This document shows positions 19,910-29,229 of a stretch of 33,649 bases of DNA, in pieces. The notes under the pieces were generated by a model. The model had not been told where the DNA came from. It ran no database searches and saw only the letters and a list, made by a program, of their open reading frames with translations. Every line of letters starts with the position of its first letter. Position 1 is the stretch's first letter. The DNA lies in NCBI GenBank assembly GCA_007124945.1, contig SLED01000158.1:1-33649 (forward strand). The letters are read 5' to 3'. The position numbers were made by a program, and so were the translations under genes. This DNA is from Salinibacteraceae bacterium (GTDB taxonomy: Bacteria > Bacteroidota > Rhodothermia > Rhodothermales > Salinibacteraceae).

Positions 19910-20000
19910 ATTAGCGTGCCACCAAAATGCAACGCGGGAGTGCGTCTAAAAACCCCAAACTATGAGTGAGCCACATCACAGCTTATCCACCTCTTTATCC

Positions 20001-20495
20001 ATGTCTTCCCCGATCGTAGGCGTTGCCATGGGCAGCGAGTCAGACCTTCCGACCATGCAAGACGCGGTTGATGTACTGCGTGAGTTCGAAGTGCCGTTTG
20101 AGGTACGCGTGCTCTCCGCCCACCGTACACCGAAGCGGATGCTATCCTACGCGGAGCAAGCCCGAGGGCGTGGTCTTAAAGTTCTGATCGGAGGGGCAGG
20201 TGGTGCCGCCCACTTGCCGGGCATGATGGCAGCGGCAACCACGCTGCCTGTGATTGGTGTCCCCGTCAAATCAAGCAAGCTCAGTGGTATGGACTCCCTC
20301 CTCTCCGTCGTTCAGATGCCGAAGGGCGTCCCCGTGGCGACTGTCGCCATCGACGGCGCCGCAAACGCCGCCCTGCTGGCCATCCAGATCCTTTCCGTCA
20401 GCGACTCCGCACTATCCCGAAAGCTTGACGAGTACAAGGAGAACCTGATCCAGAAAGTCGACGGGATGGATGCGCGGGTACAGGACGTGACGTAA
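20001..20495 (+). CDS. purE: N5-carboxyaminoimidazole ribonucleotide mutase
   Basis: 164 residues. PurE (class I) moves the carboxyl of N5-CAIR to C4, giving CAIR, the step after PurK. Seen: [13 protein letters not shown] at the N-terminus, [15 protein letters not shown] (catalytic His in SAHRTP), [18 protein letters not shown] and [32 protein letters not shown]. The [11 protein letters not shown] loop and the PurK partner mark the class I mutase. The ATG at 20001 gives the usual length. An ATG at 19962 would add 13 residues ([13 protein letters not shown]) of low complexity. Confidence 0.93.
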
Positions 20496-20550: not shown

Positions 20551-21090
20551 CTATTGCAGGGCTGCAACAGCATCAACCGTTTCTCTTACCTCGGCTTCAT
20601 CGTTGATTATACTCGGTGCGATTCGGGCATAAGAGACGTGATAGGGAGTTGTGCTGGCGATAACACCTCTCTCACGTAGATGCGCTACAACCTGCTGCGG
20701 GTCGATGCCATCGACCTCGAAGCAGATCATACCCGATGAGAGTTGTGGGCTCATGGGTGTACGCAACGTCACGTTGGATAGCTCTGCAAGCAATTCTTTC
20801 GCCATCGTATTGAGCCCGTGTACCCGTTTCACTACCCGATCCTTGCCGATCTATCGATGAAACTCGAACGCTTCTGCCACGGCCCATCGGTGTTCATAGG
20901 CGTGAAAGCCTCCCGGGGTAAAACGATCGCCCGCTGAAATATCGTCCGGGGATGAAAGGCCCAGCCAGGCAGAATAAGCGCTCCAGCTAAAGCTGGGAAT
21001 TACCGGTGCTACAACCTCCCATGCCTCCGGCCGCCCCCAGATGATTCCGGTGCCGTGCGGCCGCAGCGTGTATGGTGTCTCAGCTGGCAT
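20551..21090 (-). pseudogene. C-terminal remnant of a class V (PLP) aminotransferase with an in-frame TAG
   Basis: The reading frame from 21090 to 20551 is one continuous fold interrupted by a single TAG at 20851-20853. Upstream of it: LRPHGTGIIWGRPEAWE, FTPGGFHAYEHRWAVAEAF. Downstream: IGKDRVVKRVHGLN, GMICFEVDGIDPQQVVAHL and YHVSYARIAPSIINDEAEV. This is the C-terminal small domain of a class V aminotransferase (isopenicillin-N-epimerase/cysteine-desulfurase-like). The N-terminal large domain with the PLP lysine is missing: just before LRPHGTG, where the Lys-containing motif is expected, the sequence turns into the neighbouring dehydrogenase-like gene. TAG for TGG (Trp) is the likeliest change. 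It cannot be active as a transaminase. Confidence 0.8.
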
Positions 21091-21978
21091 TCACCCTTGC
21101 AGCAGCCTGCCCGACGGCCCGCTGTGCCAGCGGCTGATCCCGAAGTCTGCTCGCGGTAAAGTTGGGCGTCTTCGTTTCCACCAGTTCGTGAATTGCGTCA
21201 ATCGCAGCCGCCGCTACACCGATGGACACCGTGGTCTCGCCCAGAACAGCTGACAGTGAAAACATCCGGTAGAGCGGCCCCTCGAAACCAGGGCCTGATG
21301 CTCCAATGGACCGATTGGCAAGACTCGACGATCGGGAACGAACTGGTCGGTAACAGCCACGTCCGCCGACCCCGTACCTCTCATACCCATAGTGTGCCAC
21401 GTATCAAAGATCTTGATGTCTTCCTGTGGTACGAAGAAACCGTATGCGGTAGGCTGACCGGAGTCGGGGTCCAGTACCGGCTCACCACCCTCCGCCTCCA
21501 GTGCCGGAATCCAGATCCAGTGTGCGTTGTGGCACCCGCTCACAAACGGCTGGCGGGCCGTCACCTTCCAACCACCATCCACCCGCTCTCCGGTACCTGG
21601 CGGAAAGAATCCCCCGGCCGCCGTCGTCGGACCGTCAGTCAGCAGTTCCTGCGCCCGCTCCTCCGGGAGCCATGCCGCAAAGCACGCGATCCCCTGGTTC
21701 ATCACCAGATTCCATCCGGCGGCAGAGTCGACCCGTGTCACTGCCTCCCAGACGCGCATGACGTCAGTGATCGGAAGTTCGTGACCACCATAGGCCTTTG
21801 GAGCCAGCAACCCGAAGAGCCCTGCGTCAAACATGGCATCAAACGTGCCCTGTGGAAGCTTGCGTTCTGACTCAGCCTAGTCAGCATGCTCCTCCAGCAC
21901 CGGGCGGATGTGCTCGAATGCTTCGCGGAGTTCTGTGGCAACACCATTCGTCGACCCTTCCGCTATCAGCATCTTCAT
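21080..21978 (-). pseudogene. decayed acyl-CoA-dehydrogenase-like flavoprotein (group D monooxygenase type)
   Basis: The minus strand reads from ATG at 21978 (MKMLIAEGSTNGVATEL) through FEHIRPVLEEHAD, meets TAG at 21877-21879 (probably CAG, Gln, originally) and continues in frame as AESERKLPQGTFDAMFDAGLFGLLAPKAYGG. Further blocks: GWKVTARQPFVSGCHNAHW, WHTMGMRGTGSADV and VPDRRVLPI, typical of the acyl-CoA dehydrogenase superfamily members related to HpaB/HsaA-like hydroxylases. A frameshift near 21270-21310 moves the frame to GPGFEGPLYRMFSLSAVLG. The protein then stops at 21080 after QAAARVNAS, about 90 residues short of a normal C-terminus, exactly where the aminotransferase remnant begins. 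Three separate lesions make it a pseudogene. Confidence 0.83.
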
Positions 21979-22396: not shown

Positions 22397-23794
22397 TTAT
22401 CCCTGGGAAAACAGATCTCGTCCCTGAGAGGTGGTATTATTCTCTGCCGGAGCGCCACGTTGCGCTCGTCCAGACTCGGTCGACTCTTCCTGCCGGGCAT
22501 GCTGCTCGGACACCCGGTAAAGGACCGGCCGCTCGCTTCGCTCGGCCAGTCCCTTTTCTACCGCCTTCATTAACCAGCTTCGGATTTGTCCGAGCTGTGC
22601 ATCTGCAAAATGCTCCTGAATATCTCGTTCCCCTTGCGGCTCTTGCAGAACTGACTTAAGCGCCGGCCAGACGAGCGGAAGGAGCTCGGGCTTCTCGCCT
22701 TCGGCCCGACATCGGACCAGATACTCCTTGTATTCCTCGAAGACAGCCGCCGATGCATCCGCACTCTCAGTATCACTGTCTTTCTGGTGGCCGTTAATCA
22801 GTGCATCTGCAAGGGTAGGTTCCTCGTTAAGGGCGGAAGGCGTCTCCAGCCACGATGCGAGATCAAAATCGTCGCGTAGCAGTCGGCGGTCGATCGGGAT
22901 ACCTCCCTGCTCGATCAACGCGCGGTTGCCTTCGGGAAGCGGCGGCTCCGCAAGCACGAAAAGAGGTACCCACCGGTGCCGCAGGTTTTCGGTGGCGCCT
23001 GCCCACGTCCCGCCGCTGCCTTTAGCCGAGTGGGCGACGAGCGTACCGTCGCTGAGCGAATACACATGCTTGTTGCGATCCATCGCTTTCCAGACGGCGA
23101 ACCGAGAATCAGGGTGATAAGCTGACACCAGTACCAGCCGCCCTTCCATCAGGGCGGATCGATATTTCTTGGCCGTGGCCGCTCTGCCCAGTCCGTTGGC
23201 CAGTGCGCCGACCACCGTACCCCCTCCCTCCAGCGCCGCCTCCATCGCCTCGCCATCGACCCCACGAGCGCCGCCAGAAATTACCTGAACACCCTGCCGC
23301 GCGCAGCGAGAAGCCATATCGCGTACGTATGCGAGCGCACTGCCGTCGGCATCACGCGATCCAACGATGCTGAGGCCTCCTCGGTTGAGTAACTCCTGCG
23401 GGCCTACACCCCACAGGATCGGTGGTGCCTTGTGCTGAAGCCGACGGCGCAACCGCACGGGATAATTCGCATCAGAGCGTGCCAGCAACCAGCCTCCCTG
23501 ATTGGTCCAGGTCTCGACCGCCATTGCCATGGCTGTACTCCGCCTTAGCAGCGCATGCAATCGTTCACGATTGACCTTCTGTGCCCCGTCGAAAGCTTTC
23601 AGCTTCTCCCGCCCCTCTTCCCGGAGCAGCGAGGCGGGCCGAAGGTCCTGGTGTCGCAGCCATTCCGCCACCGCATTGTACTCCGCGAGTGACAGGGGCT
23701 TGGCCGACTTATCACTCTCGTGCTTGCCGAAGCGGCCGCAGAGCAAAATGATGGCTTGCGCATCCGGCTCCAGAATATGAGATGATGTCTGCAT
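22397..23794 (-). CDS. DprA/Smf-like protein of a RecQ-phosphoribosyltransferase operon (ShosA-like)
   Basis: 465 residues, cytoplasmic. The central Rossmann domain (about 125-285) carries the DprA signature: ILWGVGPQELL, LSIVGSRDAD (GSR at 145-147), QVISGGARGVDGEAMEAAL (173-180 replaces the SGLARGID of canonical DprA), and a late block KAMDRNKHVYSLSDG where DprA has a comparable RNR motif. An N-terminal helical domain (about 10-100, with PLSLAEYNAVAEWL) resembles the SAM-like part of Smf proteins. A ~100-residue charged linker and a winged-helix-like end (about 385-430, SWLMKAVEKGLAERS) follow. It starts 2 bases after the helicase stop. DprA proteins bind ssDNA in transformation; here the pairing with a PRTase points instead to a ShosTA-like defence or toxin-antitoxin role, where the DprA homologue is the antitoxin (inference). 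Confidence 0.83.
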   Translation of the reverse strand: MQTSSHILEPDAQAIILLCGRFGKHESDKSAKPLSLAEYNAVAEWLRHQDLRPASLLREEGREKLKAFDGAQKVNRERLHALLRRSTAMAMAVETWTNQGGWLLARSDANYPVRLRRRLQHKAPPILWGVGPQELLNRGGLSIVGSRDADGSALAYVRDMASRCARQGVQVISGGARGVDGEAMEAALEGGGTVVGALANGLGRAATAKKYRSALMEGRLVLVSAYHPDSRFAVWKAMDRNKHVYSLSDGTLVAHSAKGSGGTWAGATENLRHRWVPLFVLAEPPLPEGNRALIEQGGIPIDRRLLRDDFDLASWLETPSALNEEPTLADALINGHQKDSDTESADASAAVFEEYKEYLVRCRAEGEKPELLPLVWPALKSVLQEPQGERDIQEHFADAQLGQIRSWLMKAVEKGLAERSERPVLYRVSEQHARQEESTESGRAQRGAPAENNTTSQGRDLFSQG

Positions 23795-23796
23795 AA

Positions 23797-25902
23797 CTAC
23801 GTGGACGTCGGGGTTGTCGTTGCCAGAACCATGGGAAATACGGGGCCACTACCTGCTTCACGCAGAAGGGCGGTGATTACCGTGAGCGTCCACCGTGAGT
23901 AGACGGTGTCATCGACGAGTAAGACAGGACCTGCATTTACAGGATGACTTTCGACCTGAAAAACACCGTCCAAATTACGCGTCTGCTGATGCGAGTTCTC
24001 CATCTGCTTCTGCGGCTTGTTGTCACGGACTTTTCGAACGCAGTCCACAAACGGCAGGTTCAGTGCTTCAGCAAGCCGTCGAGCGTAGTCCGGCACGAGA
24101 TGGGGACGCTTGTGAGAGGGAACGAACGTCACCCACGTCGGAAAGGGATCGGGTTGCCAGCGCTCCTGGATCATGGCTCGAGCAGCTCCCACGAGGCGGT
24201 CATCAAAGGCGCCTACCACTTGCTTTCCATGCTTCACGATCTGGCCCCAGCCGGCATCGCCCCAGATCGATAGTGCGCGGCCTTGCTCCGCCTTATGCGT
24301 ATCGCTCATGGTACTCTTCCAGCCATGCGACGAAAGCGCATCCGTATGCGGCCATTGCTTACGAGGATGAATTACAACCTCGCTGCGCTGCAAGAACAAC
24401 GCCGCCTCCCTGGCGATCGTCTCGTCAAAGGCAACGGGAATCAACGGACGGCCATTACATGATGCACACTGCCCGCATGGCTTCGCATGAGGATCGTCCA
24501 GTGCCTCCTGTAAAAACTGCATGAGGCAACCATCGTGCTCCATGTAGCGCTGCATCTCGGCCTGCTCCTGGCGCCGGATTCTGGTGATCAGCTGTACCTT
24601 CTCTCGGTCCGGCTGGTATGGAACCGCCGTGCGATACCAGCGACTGCCCCGCTTGACGACAGGCGAGGGCGATCGCACAGAGAGCAGCTTAAGCACATGC
24701 TGGATTTGCTTGCGGCGGAGATTAACCTGTCGCTCTATCTCCGTCACCTTCAGGCCGTTACCGTCCAGCAGCGCTCCCAGCACCTGCTCAACATGCCCTT
24801 CGGCAGGAAAGGACTTGCGAATGAAATAATCGATGATGTCATCATCTTCCGAGCCGTGCAGAAGAATCCCGTGTGCAGAGTTTCCATCACGCCCTGCACG
24901 TCCAACCTGCTGATAGTAATGTACCACAGAGCCGGGCCGCTGGTAATGAATTACGAAACTAAGATCCGGTTTGTCGAAGCCCATTCCAAGGGCAACGGTA
25001 GCGACCAGCGCCTTCACTTCATTGTTCAGGAGTGCCTGCTCCCGGGCTATACGTTCCTCCGTATCCAGCTGTCCGGAGTAGGCATGCGCGTCGATCCCCT
25101 GCAACTGGAGCCACTCCGCCACGCGCTCGGCGTCGCGAACGGTGAGGGTGTAGATGATGCCGCTTCCGGGCAGGTCCGGCAGATGCTGGGCGAGCCATGC
25201 AAGCCGGGCCGTGGGGCTGGGCATGGCGACGTTTTGCAGGCGGAGACTTGCGCGCGCCAGTGGTCCTCTCGATATATCAACGTTGTGCCCAATCTGCGTA
25301 GCTACGTCTTCTACCACGCGGTCATTCGCCGTGGCGGTGGTGGTAAGGATGGGCATATTGCCCGGCATGGCCTGGAGCACGCGGACAATGCGCAGATAAT
25401 CGGGGCGAAAGTCATGGCCCCAGTCGGAGATGCAGTGCGCCTCGTCGACCACGAAAAGGCCGACGCGATCGGCAAGGGCAGCCAGCACGTCTTGCCGAAA
25501 AGATTCGTTGGCAAGCCGCTCCGGAGATATCAAAAGAATGTCGACTTTATCCTCTCGGATGCCGCGCTCGATACGGCGCCACGCGTCGGTGTTAGTAGAG
25601 TTGATGGTCTCTGCACGGATACCAATGCGCCCGGCCGCTTCGATCTGATTCCGCATAAGCGCAAGTAGAGGAGAAATCAGGATGGTCGGCCCCTCCCCCT
25701 GATCGCGCAGCAGCCGCGTGGCCAGGAAGTACACCATGCTCTTCCCCCACCCGGTTCGGCGCACCAGAAGAAGCCGTTTTCTATCGAAGACCAGACTGCG
25801 GATGGCCTCCCACTGACCGTCCCTGAACTGCGCCGTCGGAATACCAAGCGCCTGCCGGAGATATCCAAGTGCCCGAGCGTGAGGGCCTGTAGCCAGTTCC
25901 AT
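23797..25902 (-). CDS. RecQ-family helicase fused to a ComF/ShosT-like phosphoribosyltransferase
   Basis: 701 residues. Helicase core: Q-motif-like FRDGQ (27-31), Walker A RTGWGKS (49-55, in place of the usual PTGGGKS), DEAHCISDWGHDFRPDY (153-169, with the RecQ aromatic loop), TTTATAND (187-194) and QQVGRAGRDG (331-340). A RecQ-C-terminal-like winged region (about 370-450) and a four-cysteine zinc site (C459, C476, C479, C482; CGQCASC) follow. No HRDC domain is present. The last ~120 residues are a type I phosphoribosyltransferase fold: VTFVPSHKRPHLVPDYARRLAEAL (591-613) and the PRPP-loop-like VLLVDDTVYSRWTLTV (660-675), whose TGxT phosphate loop is changed to YSRWT. The fusion, and the DprA-like gene 2 bases downstream, argue against a housekeeping RecQ and for a defence function. 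Confidence 0.88.
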   Translation of the reverse strand: MELATGPHARALGYLRQALGIPTAQFRDGQWEAIRSLVFDRKRLLLVRRTGWGKSMVYFLATRLLRDQGEGPTILISPLLALMRNQIEAAGRIGIRAETINSTNTDAWRRIERGIREDKVDILLISPERLANESFRQDVLAALADRVGLFVVDEAHCISDWGHDFRPDYLRIVRVLQAMPGNMPILTTTATANDRVVEDVATQIGHNVDISRGPLARASLRLQNVAMPSPTARLAWLAQHLPDLPGSGIIYTLTVRDAERVAEWLQLQGIDAHAYSGQLDTEERIAREQALLNNEVKALVATVALGMGFDKPDLSFVIHYQRPGSVVHYYQQVGRAGRDGNSAHGILLHGSEDDDIIDYFIRKSFPAEGHVEQVLGALLDGNGLKVTEIERQVNLRRKQIQHVLKLLSVRSPSPVVKRGSRWYRTAVPYQPDREKVQLITRIRRQEQAEMQRYMEHDGCLMQFLQEALDDPHAKPCGQCASCNGRPLIPVAFDETIAREAALFLQRSEVVIHPRKQWPHTDALSSHGWKSTMSDTHKAEQGRALSIWGDAGWGQIVKHGKQVVGAFDDRLVGAARAMIQERWQPDPFPTWVTFVPSHKRPHLVPDYARRLAEALNLPFVDCVRKVRDNKPQKQMENSHQQTRNLDGVFQVESHPVNAGPVLLVDDTVYSRWTLTVITALLREAGSGPVFPMVLATTTPTST

Positions 25903-26638: not shown

Positions 26639-26642
26639 GCAG

Positions 26643-26726
26643 TGCCCTGGAGAGGAGTCGAACCTCCACGAGCATTAGCTCACAGCATCCTGAATGCTGC
26701 GCGTCTACCAGTTCCGCCACCAGGGC
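26643..26726 (-). tRNA. tRNA-Leu (anticodon CAG)
   Basis: 84 nt class II tRNA on the minus strand. Acceptor stem GCCCTGG pairs with CCAGGGC; A73 is at 26643. D-arm GCGGAACTGGTAGACGC is leucine-typical. The anticodon loop TTCAGGA gives anticodon CAG, closed by GCAGCA/TGCTGT. The long variable arm (TGAGCTAATGCTCG) and GGTTCGACTCC T-arm complete it. CCA is not encoded. Confidence 0.96.
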
Positions 26727-26743
26727 TCGTGTGTAAGGATCGC

Positions 26744-26773
26744 AATATACGATACCACCCTCCCCGAGTTCAA
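26744..26773 (-). promoter_or_regulatory. promoter of tRNA-Leu(CAG)
   Basis: On the minus strand TTGAAC (26768-26773) and TATATT (26744-26749) are separated by 18 bases. The -10 element ends 17 bases before the tRNA, as at the tRNA-Leu(TAA) gene. Confidence 0.6.
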
Positions 26774-26896
26774 GGGGGTGTGCATCTCCACCGTCGTTTC
26801 ATGAATAGCGGTTCCTTTAGCGTCTGAGCGGCATCGAGACCTGCGTGAGCGGGGGATGATGCGTTGGAGAAGTTGGCAGCATCGTTTTCACTCATA

Positions 26897-27233
26897 TGTC
26901 CTTCTGAGGAGCCTGCGACGGCCGAAGAGCCTCTCGCGAGAAGCGCCCGCCTGGAATCAGGACCGGAGCTCCCGGAAGGGACCGAGACGGTCTCGCTGGT
27001 GCGTTCGAGCCGAGATGGTTGGAACGAGGGTAAACGAATTTTTCCTTTTGGTAGCCTGTCACCTCACTAATCATGGTAAGGTTATTCAGGCCGATAACCC
27101 GCCGCTTCGCTCCCAGTGCTCTGATGCCACACCGCACCGGCGAGATTCTTCGCTTCGTTCAGAATGATGGGAATTGATGGGTTAATGCCACCCCTCTCCA
27201 CCCGCGTCATTCCGAGGGAGCCGCGCCGACCGA
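26897..27233. repeat. cluster of interspersed palindromic repeat fragments (MITE/REP-like)
   Basis: Three pieces of one repeat family lie here. The first (26897-26940, plus) runs TCCTTCTGAGGAG, then GCGAC, GAAGAG and CTCGCGAG. The second (27139-27168, minus orientation) starts GGCGAGATTCTTCG and ends TCGTTCAGAATGA. The third (27206-27233, plus) reads GTCATTCCGAGGGAGCCGCG. The first two face each other, giving imperfect terminal inverted repeats of a ~270-base element with no gene inside. A related copy lies at 33226-33288. Such TCATTCTGAGCGAAGCGAAG-type elements are widespread in many bacterial phyla. Between them no coding sequence is seen. Confidence 0.65.
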
Positions 27234-27307
27234 ATGTGAAACACCCGCGTACCGGTATGCTTCCGATATCGCAGAGCTTGTATCTGCTAACTGATTTCCC
27301 GAGATGG

Positions 27308-27856
27308 ATGACAGTGCTGCACAACATTCTTCCTGTGGCTGTTGCCATCTTCCTTCTCACAACGCCGCCAGTCGACGCGTATCCTGACCCCGAGGAGGGT
27401 GTGCGCGCAGAAATACTATATCAGGTGGATGATGTCTACGAGAAGATGATAGCACTTGCCGAAACCCTGCCCTCCGAGATGTACGAGTGGCGCCCGGATG
27501 AGGACACGCGCTTGGTCAGCGAGGTCTTTGCACACATCGTGGAGTCAAACTACTTCCTGGTGGATCTGGCAGGCGCGTCCATCCCGGTTGACTATGAGGC
27601 CATCGACTGGGAGGGCGGGGTTACTAACAGGCGTGAGATCATCGAAGCCCTCGAAACCTCACACCACATCACCCGAAAAGGGATTACGTCGATTAGCGAG
27701 GCAACCATGGATAGCAAAGTAGACTGGTTCGATCTTTCCTTTGAGAACACGGTCCGCGGAACGTTAATCCACCTGGTCAAGCACACGTTCGAACATCACG
27801 GGCAGATCGTGGCCTATGCGCGAATGAACGATGTCGTGCCGCCGTGGAGTCGGTGA
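27308..27856 (+). CDS. exported DinB-fold protein
   Basis: 182 residues. An N-terminal signal peptide (about 1-24, VLHNILPVAVAIFLLTTPPVDA, likely cleaved before YPDPEEG) precedes a DinB four-helix bundle (about 30-182). Candidate metal ligands are H76 (SEVFAHIVESNY) and H159 and H163/H164 (VKHTFEHHGQIVAYARM), the pattern of DinB/YfiT metal-dependent proteins. Family members include thiol-dependent S-transferases, but the function of exported ones is unknown. The ATG at 27308 is chosen because it begins the signal peptide; longer frames upstream run into repeat DNA. It is convergent with the transporter gene. Confidence 0.8.
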   Translation: MTVLHNILPVAVAIFLLTTPPVDAYPDPEEGVRAEILYQVDDVYEKMIALAETLPSEMYEWRPDEDTRLVSEVFAHIVESNYFLVDLAGASIPVDYEAIDWEGGVTNRREIIEALETSHHITRKGITSISEATMDSKVDWFDLSFENTVRGTLIHLVKHTFEHHGQIVAYARMNDVVPPWSR

Positions 27857-27919
27857 GTCCTTCGGCTTTACGCCTCTCCCACGAGGGAATTCGTGCCCGC
27901 ACGACGGCTTGCCCCCCCA

Positions 27920-27950
27920 GTCGCTGGCGCGACAGCCCCCTCAAGGGGGC
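27920..27950. repeat. double hairpin between convergent genes
   Basis: GTCGC-TGGC-GCGAC (27920-27933) is followed by GCCCCCT-CA-AGGGGGC (27935-27950). Both stems are perfect. The block lies in the 170-base gap between two convergent genes and could stop transcription from both sides or be a REP-type repeat. No T-run follows on either strand. Confidence 0.55.
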
Positions 27951-28026
27951 GGTTTGTGGTGCACAACTGAAAGTCTTCCCGCCGTGCATGACAGAAGCCG
28001 CCAATCCACCGTGTTTCATGCATGAG

Positions 28027-29229
28027 CTAAACCCCAACCTGCGTCCACACCCACCAGAGCGTCCGCCCTCCAAGTCCGGCGCAGATGAGCACCACGATAA
28101 TCCCGAGTCCGTAGTACCACCGCGGTAGGTACACGACTTCCTGCCGTAGCGACAGGTACAGCATGAACCCGGCTATGAGCGGCAGTAGCAGGCCATTGGC
28201 AGCCTGCGCGGCGATGATGGCAGCCAGCGGCGACCAGTCGCCGAGTGCAAACACGAGTCCGGTGAGGATGACGGATCCCCACACGAGACGGTAGCGCCAG
28301 TCAGTGACGTCCTCCGACCAGCCGAAGATCTCGCGGATACCCGCCGCAGCGGCCAGCGGCGCGGTCATCGCGGAGGTGATACCGGCCGCGAAAAGCCCGA
28401 TGCCGAAGCACAACTGCGCAGCCGTACCAGCCACCGGCTCCAGCAGCACCGTGAACGCTTCCACATCATCAGCAGCCGCATCCGTGCCGAAGAGCGTGGC
28501 GCCTGCCGCCAGTATCGAAAATGAGATCACGCCGCCAATCGGCAAGCAGAGCGCCATCCCCTGTAGTTCGCGACTCCAGGCAGAGGGACGGTCGTCCGCA
28601 TCCTGCCAGTACGCTTTCGCTGCCGAGGGATGCAGGAAGAGGTTGTACGTGACGATGGTGGTGCCGAGCAGCGCTATCACGGTGAGTAGGCTTCCCTCCG
28701 GCACAGACGGAACCAGCAGCCCGCTCAGTGCCGCCGACCAGTCGACGGGCGCCAGCATCATGCCGATCACGAACAGGATGCTCATCAGCACCACGAGCAC
28801 TGTGAAGAGGCGCACGATAATCCGCAAATCAAACAGCAATATGATTCCTGCAATAACGGCAATTAACACGACCAGGCCCCGGATGGGTACACCTCCGTTG
28901 GCCAGTGCTGAGATTCCGGAGGCCGCGCCGAGCAGATTGCCCGTCTCAAACGCGGCCGTGCCCACCCAGAGGCCGAGCACCACCAGTCCGAACGCCACCG
29001 CCCGAGCCACACGTCCCTCCAGCGTGTTGCGCAACGCCTCGCCCAGCCCCTGCCCCGCCAGGATGCCGGTGGACGCGGTGAACGACTGCAGCACGAACGT
29101 CGCAGCCGTGGCGAAGAGCAGCACCCAGCCGAGCGCATACCCGAACTCGACGCCGGCGGCAGCGCAGGTCAGCACCGTACCCGGACCCACGAACGCAGCG
29201 ACGACAATCGACGAGGTACCAAGGCGCAT
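28027..29229 (-). CDS. NRAMP-fold transporter lacking the canonical metal-site residues
   Basis: 400 residues, about eleven membrane helices (LeuT fold). The alignment to NRAMP is clear: helix 1 TSSIVVAAFVGPGTVLTCAA and helix 6 LLGTTIVTYNLFLHPSAAKAYW. Canonical metal transporters have DPGN in helix 1 and MPHN in helix 6; here these are GPGT (15-18) and VTYN (193-196), so the Asp, Asn and Met ligands of the transition-metal site are all absent. Transport of Mn2+ or Fe2+ is therefore unlikely. It is divergent from the 5-oxoprolinase-like gene across 74 bases. B. subtilis YcsG, another NRAMP-family protein, sits in the pxpABC (5-oxoprolinase) operon, so a role in uptake of 5-oxoproline or a related lactam is plausible (inference). 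Confidence 0.85.
   Translation of the reverse strand: MRLGTSSIVVAAFVGPGTVLTCAAAGVEFGYALGWVLLFATAATFVLQSFTASTGILAGQGLGEALRNTLEGRVARAVAFGLVVLGLWVGTAAFETGNLLGAASGISALANGGVPIRGLVVLIAVIAGIILLFDLRIIVRLFTVLVVLMSILFVIGMMLAPVDWSAALSGLLVPSVPEGSLLTVIALLGTTIVTYNLFLHPSAAKAYWQDADDRPSAWSRELQGMALCLPIGGVISFSILAAGATLFGTDAAADDVEAFTVLLEPVAGTAAQLCFGIGLFAAGITSAMTAPLAAAAGIREIFGWSEDVTDWRYRLVWGSVILTGLVFALGDWSPLAAIIAAQAANGLLLPLIAGFMLYLSLRQEVVYLPRWYYGLGIIVVLICAGLGGRTLWWVWTQVGV

Follow-up and report, generated by a model that had tools for sequence, protein, structure and literature searches.

A decaying and probably transferred pair of metabolic genes joined by a deletion in a Salinibacteraceae genome

The window analysed here is a stretch of 33,649 nucleotides from a Salinibacteraceae bacterium (GCA_007124945.1, contig SLED01000158.1). 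Between positions 21978 and 20551 of its minus strand lie pieces that resemble two different metabolic enzymes, which raises the question of whether they form a gene, a fusion of genes or the remains of genes. Read in the direction of coding, an HsaA-type monooxygenase-like gene, of which the first 306 of some 402 codons survive, runs into the last 169 codons of a PvdN-like aminotransferase gene, and the 475 retained codons (306 + 169) carry three premature stops, one frame change and one deletion junction. The locus has the properties by which bacterial pseudogenes are recognized, namely homology to functional families, disabled frames and uninterrupted relatives elsewhere, and the Pfam and NCBIfam matches show that both remnants are true homologues and exclude chance frames. 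Very probably, the two are metabolic genes that came in as a pair by horizontal transfer, were joined by a deletion and are now decaying. An initial annotation had described two fused pseudogenes with one TAG in each; the fusion, both TAG codons and the frame change hold, and the junction coordinates and the TGG origin proposed for one of the stops had to be given up.

The first remnant starts with an ATG at 21976-21978 and comprises the N-terminal 229 codons of an HsaA/acyl-CoA-dehydrogenase-type monooxygenase-like gene (21292-21978, minus strand), whose otherwise open frame is interrupted by a TAG at 21877-21879. The same gene continues in another frame for about 77 codons (21059-21289, minus strand), as identified by tblastn and by alignment with two homologues: one on L058, a contig of a Balneolaceae MAG (SKRC01000232.1, contained in genome G183 with a 100% match over 321 aa), and one in genome G187, which is uninterrupted and 402 aa long from its ATG. 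With the L058 protein as query, frame -2 gives 64% identity as far as 21292 and frame -1 the same value from 21289 onwards, so that the frameshift suspected near 21270-21310 is real and lies at 21289-21292. The shifted part contains a third premature stop that had been overlooked, an in-frame TGA at 21080-21082, and homology in frame -1 passes this codon and reaches about 21059. The first part matches the Pfam family Acyl-CoA_dh_N (E 1.1e-9) and the shifted second part Acyl-CoA_dh_2 (E 7.6e-7). In NCBIfam the remnant matches HsaA (E 7.3e-33) with 113.9 bits, below the curated equivalog cut-off of 450 bits. Activity in the HsaA group depends on its C-terminal domain. Compared with G187, the last ~95 residues of the protein are absent from the window. 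G187 itself matches the flavin monooxygenases of the HsaA / p-hydroxyphenylacetate hydroxylase C2 group (PDB 2rfq, 3afe, 2jbr; Rv3094c, 7f72) over most of its length, although at 179.2 bits it too is far under the cut-off; the window copy differs from that group further in being broken and in having no C-terminus.

The second remnant (20554-21060, minus strand) derives from a class V, PvdN-like aminotransferase gene and retains its C-terminal end, with homology extending from 21060 to 20557. It stops with a TAG at 20551-20553, where the family naturally ends, and has a premature TAG at 20851-20853 within an otherwise open minus-strand frame. It matches Aminotran_5 in Pfam (E 9.5e-8) and PvdN in NCBIfam (E 7.6e-36); in the equivalog comparison, for which the remnant only was scanned, it scores 123.7 bits against a curated cut-off of 650. 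An uninterrupted homologue (L075, genome G080) matches the PLP enzyme PvdN (PDB 5i90, 5hh9) over residues 12-428 of 432 (E 1.1e-110), in contrast to the 169 codons left in the window. For reference we used 16 uninterrupted aminotransferase frames, which measure 395-481 codons from one stop or contig end to the next, two of them cut N-terminally by contig ends; a 234-aa frame from G190 was left out. All 16 contain an HKW segment (THKW in 15, AHKW in one), which we take to be the site of the PLP lysine, and this segment is gone from the window remnant. Since the monooxygenase is without its C-terminal end and the aminotransferase without the HKW segment, neither remnant is predicted to be able to yield a complete enzyme, and both have presumably lost all function.

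The deletion scar had been placed at 21085-21105. What looks like the end of the monooxygenase gene at that point is the premature TGA, and the junction therefore moves to about 21056-21064: compared with the L058 monooxygenase and the intact aminotransferases, monooxygenase homology extends to about 21059 and aminotransferase homology begins at about 21060. The two homologies meet within a G+C-rich stretch (21056-21064, minus strand) in which the few junction bases match either gene, so that the exact point is ambiguous over about 9 bases. Because these bases fit both genes, a deletion at short homology would suit as the joining event. A single deletion would have taken the last ~95 codons of the monooxygenase and the first ~60% of the aminotransferase and joined the ends within this stretch; in the order of lesions that we infer, two further stops and the frame change would then have arisen in the monooxygenase remnant and one stop in the aminotransferase remnant.

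Both TAG codons had been explained by single transitions, from TGG and from CAG. A TGG origin of the TAG at 20851-20853 is unsupported, as none of the 16 homologues has tryptophan there (they have A, D, E, K, N, Q, R or T, and L058 has K). At the TAG at 21877-21879, G187, the sole uninterrupted close relative aligned, has valine, and an origin from CAG (Gln) was not borne out. As TAG accounts for two of the three premature stops, one may ask whether it is reassigned or read through and the genes are functional. In a genome recoded in this way TAG would be unused as an ordinary gene end, and here it is a normal stop, terminating five of the 18 window genes checked as well as the aminotransferase remnant at its natural end. 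Moreover, TAG as a sense codon leaves the TGA, the frame change and the missing parts unexplained. Recoding was rejected on these grounds; applied to the entire locus it is refuted by the truncations and the change of frame, and we regard its probability as negligible.

The monooxygenase is rare among relatives. Of 244 class genomes, three have a match at E<=1e-30, namely G183, G187 and the window's own. At E<=1e-40 the gene occurs in one of 114 genomes of the order and one of 395 sampled genomes of the phylum, each time the window's own, with G183 and G187 absent from the matches. Weaker matches to its N-terminal part (25-34% identity), found in 56 of 60 relatives including the window's own genome, look like other members of the family. 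The aminotransferase C-terminus is found in 17 of the 244 class genomes at E<=1e-15. The window's own genome, which is 86% complete, contains no other close copy of either gene, nor was the missing N-terminal part of the aminotransferase found elsewhere in it; the aminotransferase search returned from this genome three class V-type frames without stops at 28-29% identity.

L058 carries the two genes in the same order as the window. Its monooxygenase, the start of which is cut by the contig end, has a complete C-terminus, and the aminotransferase C-terminus (142 codons, L058:986-1411, plus strand) begins about 20 bases after the monooxygenase stop. The frame of this fragment is open; none of the start codons ATG, GTG and TTG lies close to where it begins, and the first one in frame is internal, at 1127. 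It is followed by a 285-aa frame and then by an aldo/keto reductase gene that shares 68% identity with its G187 counterpart. On another contig of G183 a second aminotransferase frame, 413 codons long, reaches the contig end. In G187 the aldo/keto reductase gene directly follows the monooxygenase gene, and the 16.7-kb contig contains no aminotransferase; the G187 reductase has no significant match within the window. None of the three class genomes with the monooxygenase shows it beside a full-length aminotransferase.

We also looked for the same fusion in relatives, which would have made it a conserved gene. L058 keeps the neighbours, and the junction differs. The fusion is not a conserved gene, because the L058 aminotransferase is cut at another point and the L058 monooxygenase is C-terminally complete; a conserved fusion gene was rejected for this reason. 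As the two junctions differ, the aminotransferase was truncated separately in both lineages.

Divergence by codon position bears on the age of the decay. Between the window and L058, the fractions of differing first, second and third positions are 0.244/0.151/0.578 for the monooxygenase (225 codons) and 0.214/0.150/0.564 for the aminotransferase (140 codons). Three comparisons between the L058 fragment and uninterrupted aminotransferases give second-position differences of 0.199-0.233 and third-position differences of 0.579-0.690; second-position differences between the window and L058 are thus no higher than those of the fragment against uninterrupted genes. The window remnant alters three of 36 columns that are invariant in the 16 aminotransferases, one of them in common with L058, and in a leave-one-out control each of the 16 alters 0-4 of 36-40 such columns. 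Monooxygenase changes confined to one lineage number 33/23/57 by codon position in the window, 12/11/39 in G187 and 18/11/30 in L058; those of the window are less skewed than those of G187, which partly speaks against recent inactivation, and resemble those of L058, counts that are compatible with or without a short neutral phase of the monooxygenase and neither prove nor exclude one. Codon positions and invariant columns together indicate that purifying selection acted on both genes during almost the whole of this divergence, and that inactivation is recent. Together with the gene order of L058 and the comparison with relatives that carry uninterrupted genes (the G187 monooxygenase and the 16 aminotransferase frames), this divergence makes two adjacent genes, fused by deletion and recently inactivated, the best reading, as the initial annotation had it.

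A purely vertical, local history is unsupported given the three of 244 class genomes with the monooxygenase and the presence of tyrS after purE in genomes of the same genus. An 18-row tree groups the aminotransferase remnants of the window and L058 as sisters with support of 94/96, just below the starred level (94 vs 95); G006 and G012, of the same family as the window, carry other copies of the aminotransferase. With the same neighbours in the same order, sister aminotransferases in two families and so few class genomes with the monooxygenase, the pair is best read as shared and would have moved horizontally, a reading that rests on the patchy distribution and this one tree. Patchy distribution within the clade is expected of failed transfers, and is seen here also in the two same-genus genomes, which give no match. 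Among 72,556 plasmid records, 34 match the L058 monooxygenase, all at less than 60% identity (28.1-34.3% among the 20 listed); a plasmid origin was rejected, with no close source among these records.

To the left of the remnants lies purE, an open frame on the plus strand (19962-20495). In the same-genus genomes G001 and G002 a convergent tyrS follows purE, the G001 gene being 95% identical to that of G002 over 177 residues to the contig end. Neither DNA searches nor protein searches at their thresholds found the pseudogenes in these two genomes, which are 90% and 88% complete. The right flank of the window (22397-25902, minus strand) is occupied by two intact genes identified with PADLOC: a PsyrA-like gene of the DprA type (22397-23794, 465 aa, E 7.9e-128) and a PsyrT-like DEAD-box helicase gene (23797-25902, 701 aa, E 1.7e-295), both minus strand. 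PMC8790059 lists PsyrTA among validated toxin-antitoxin families, its toxin being a helicase of the RecQ type. The pair also occurs in G005 (59% and 72%), and G002 has the start of a PsyrT-like gene (80%) at a contig end. The site beside purE is, to judge from these genomes, variable. The comparison gave no clean insertion at purE: the right flank differs too, and the PsyrT-like gene of G002 is cut by the contig end.

Farther along, a tRNA-Leu (CAG) gene (26642-26726, minus strand) lies about 740 bases upstream of the PsyrT-like gene and is a possible integration landmark. Short stretches at 26971-27234 and 27896-27962 recur at 74-94% identity on nine other contigs of the same genome and are probably a dispersed repeat family; no repeats were found within 26700-28060 itself. 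A 103-aa open frame (26856-27167, plus strand) overlaps a dispersed repeat stretch and has no Pfam or PADLOC match.

Could the organism itself carry intact genes, with the stops, frame change and junction introduced by errors of metagenome assembly or consensus? The genome is in 415 contigs and 85.78% complete, so errors of this sort are conceivable. They would have had to produce, within 1.4 kb, four frame-breaking lesions that differ in kind and a junction of unrelated sequence, and L058, which comes from another genome, likewise carries a truncated member of the pair. The 18 flanking genes checked are open, a weak control since they were chosen among listed open frames. We consider an assembly or consensus error very unlikely.

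A conserved fusion or a retained fragment, in which the C-terminal piece of the aminotransferase is functional by itself, has several observations in its favour: two distant genomes have the piece after the monooxygenase, L058 keeps it as an uninterrupted frame of 142 aa, and the window and L058 pieces differ mainly at third codon positions. That skew is equally expected if both fragments were intact genes until recently. The junctions of the two are not alike, the L058 piece lacks an early start codon, an in-frame TAG interrupts the window copy, which stands behind a broken gene, and G187 has the monooxygenase without an aminotransferase on its 16.7-kb contig; retention of a functional fragment is accordingly highly improbable. 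The truncation of the aminotransferase more than once within the pair is a sign that counts against accidental loss, being less neatly explained by pure accident. That two lineages cut it back because loss of the PLP enzyme from a two-gene unit is repeatedly favoured, or because the fragment has a use, seems to us a most doubtful proposition.

Decay after transfer is in keeping with what has been reported for prokaryotes: according to Liu et al. 2004 (PMC522871), the share of potential horizontal transfers is higher by a factor of 2.3 in pseudogenes than in genes. The locus fits this pattern, resembling its failed-transfer pseudogenes in being disabled homologues of known genes with a patchy distribution, stops and a frame change. 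It differs in that two genes are joined by one deletion; otherwise we see no substantial difference from the cases treated there.

Overall, this is an ordinary and recent case of bacterial gene decay, with no wider mechanistic consequence apparent. For annotation, it means that the short frames of a mechanical frame list at this locus (93, 106, 206 and 225 aa) are not genes. It is also an instance of a metabolic gene pair, probably transferred, that did not succeed and is undergoing deletion, next to a defence pair and at a site where close relatives differ.
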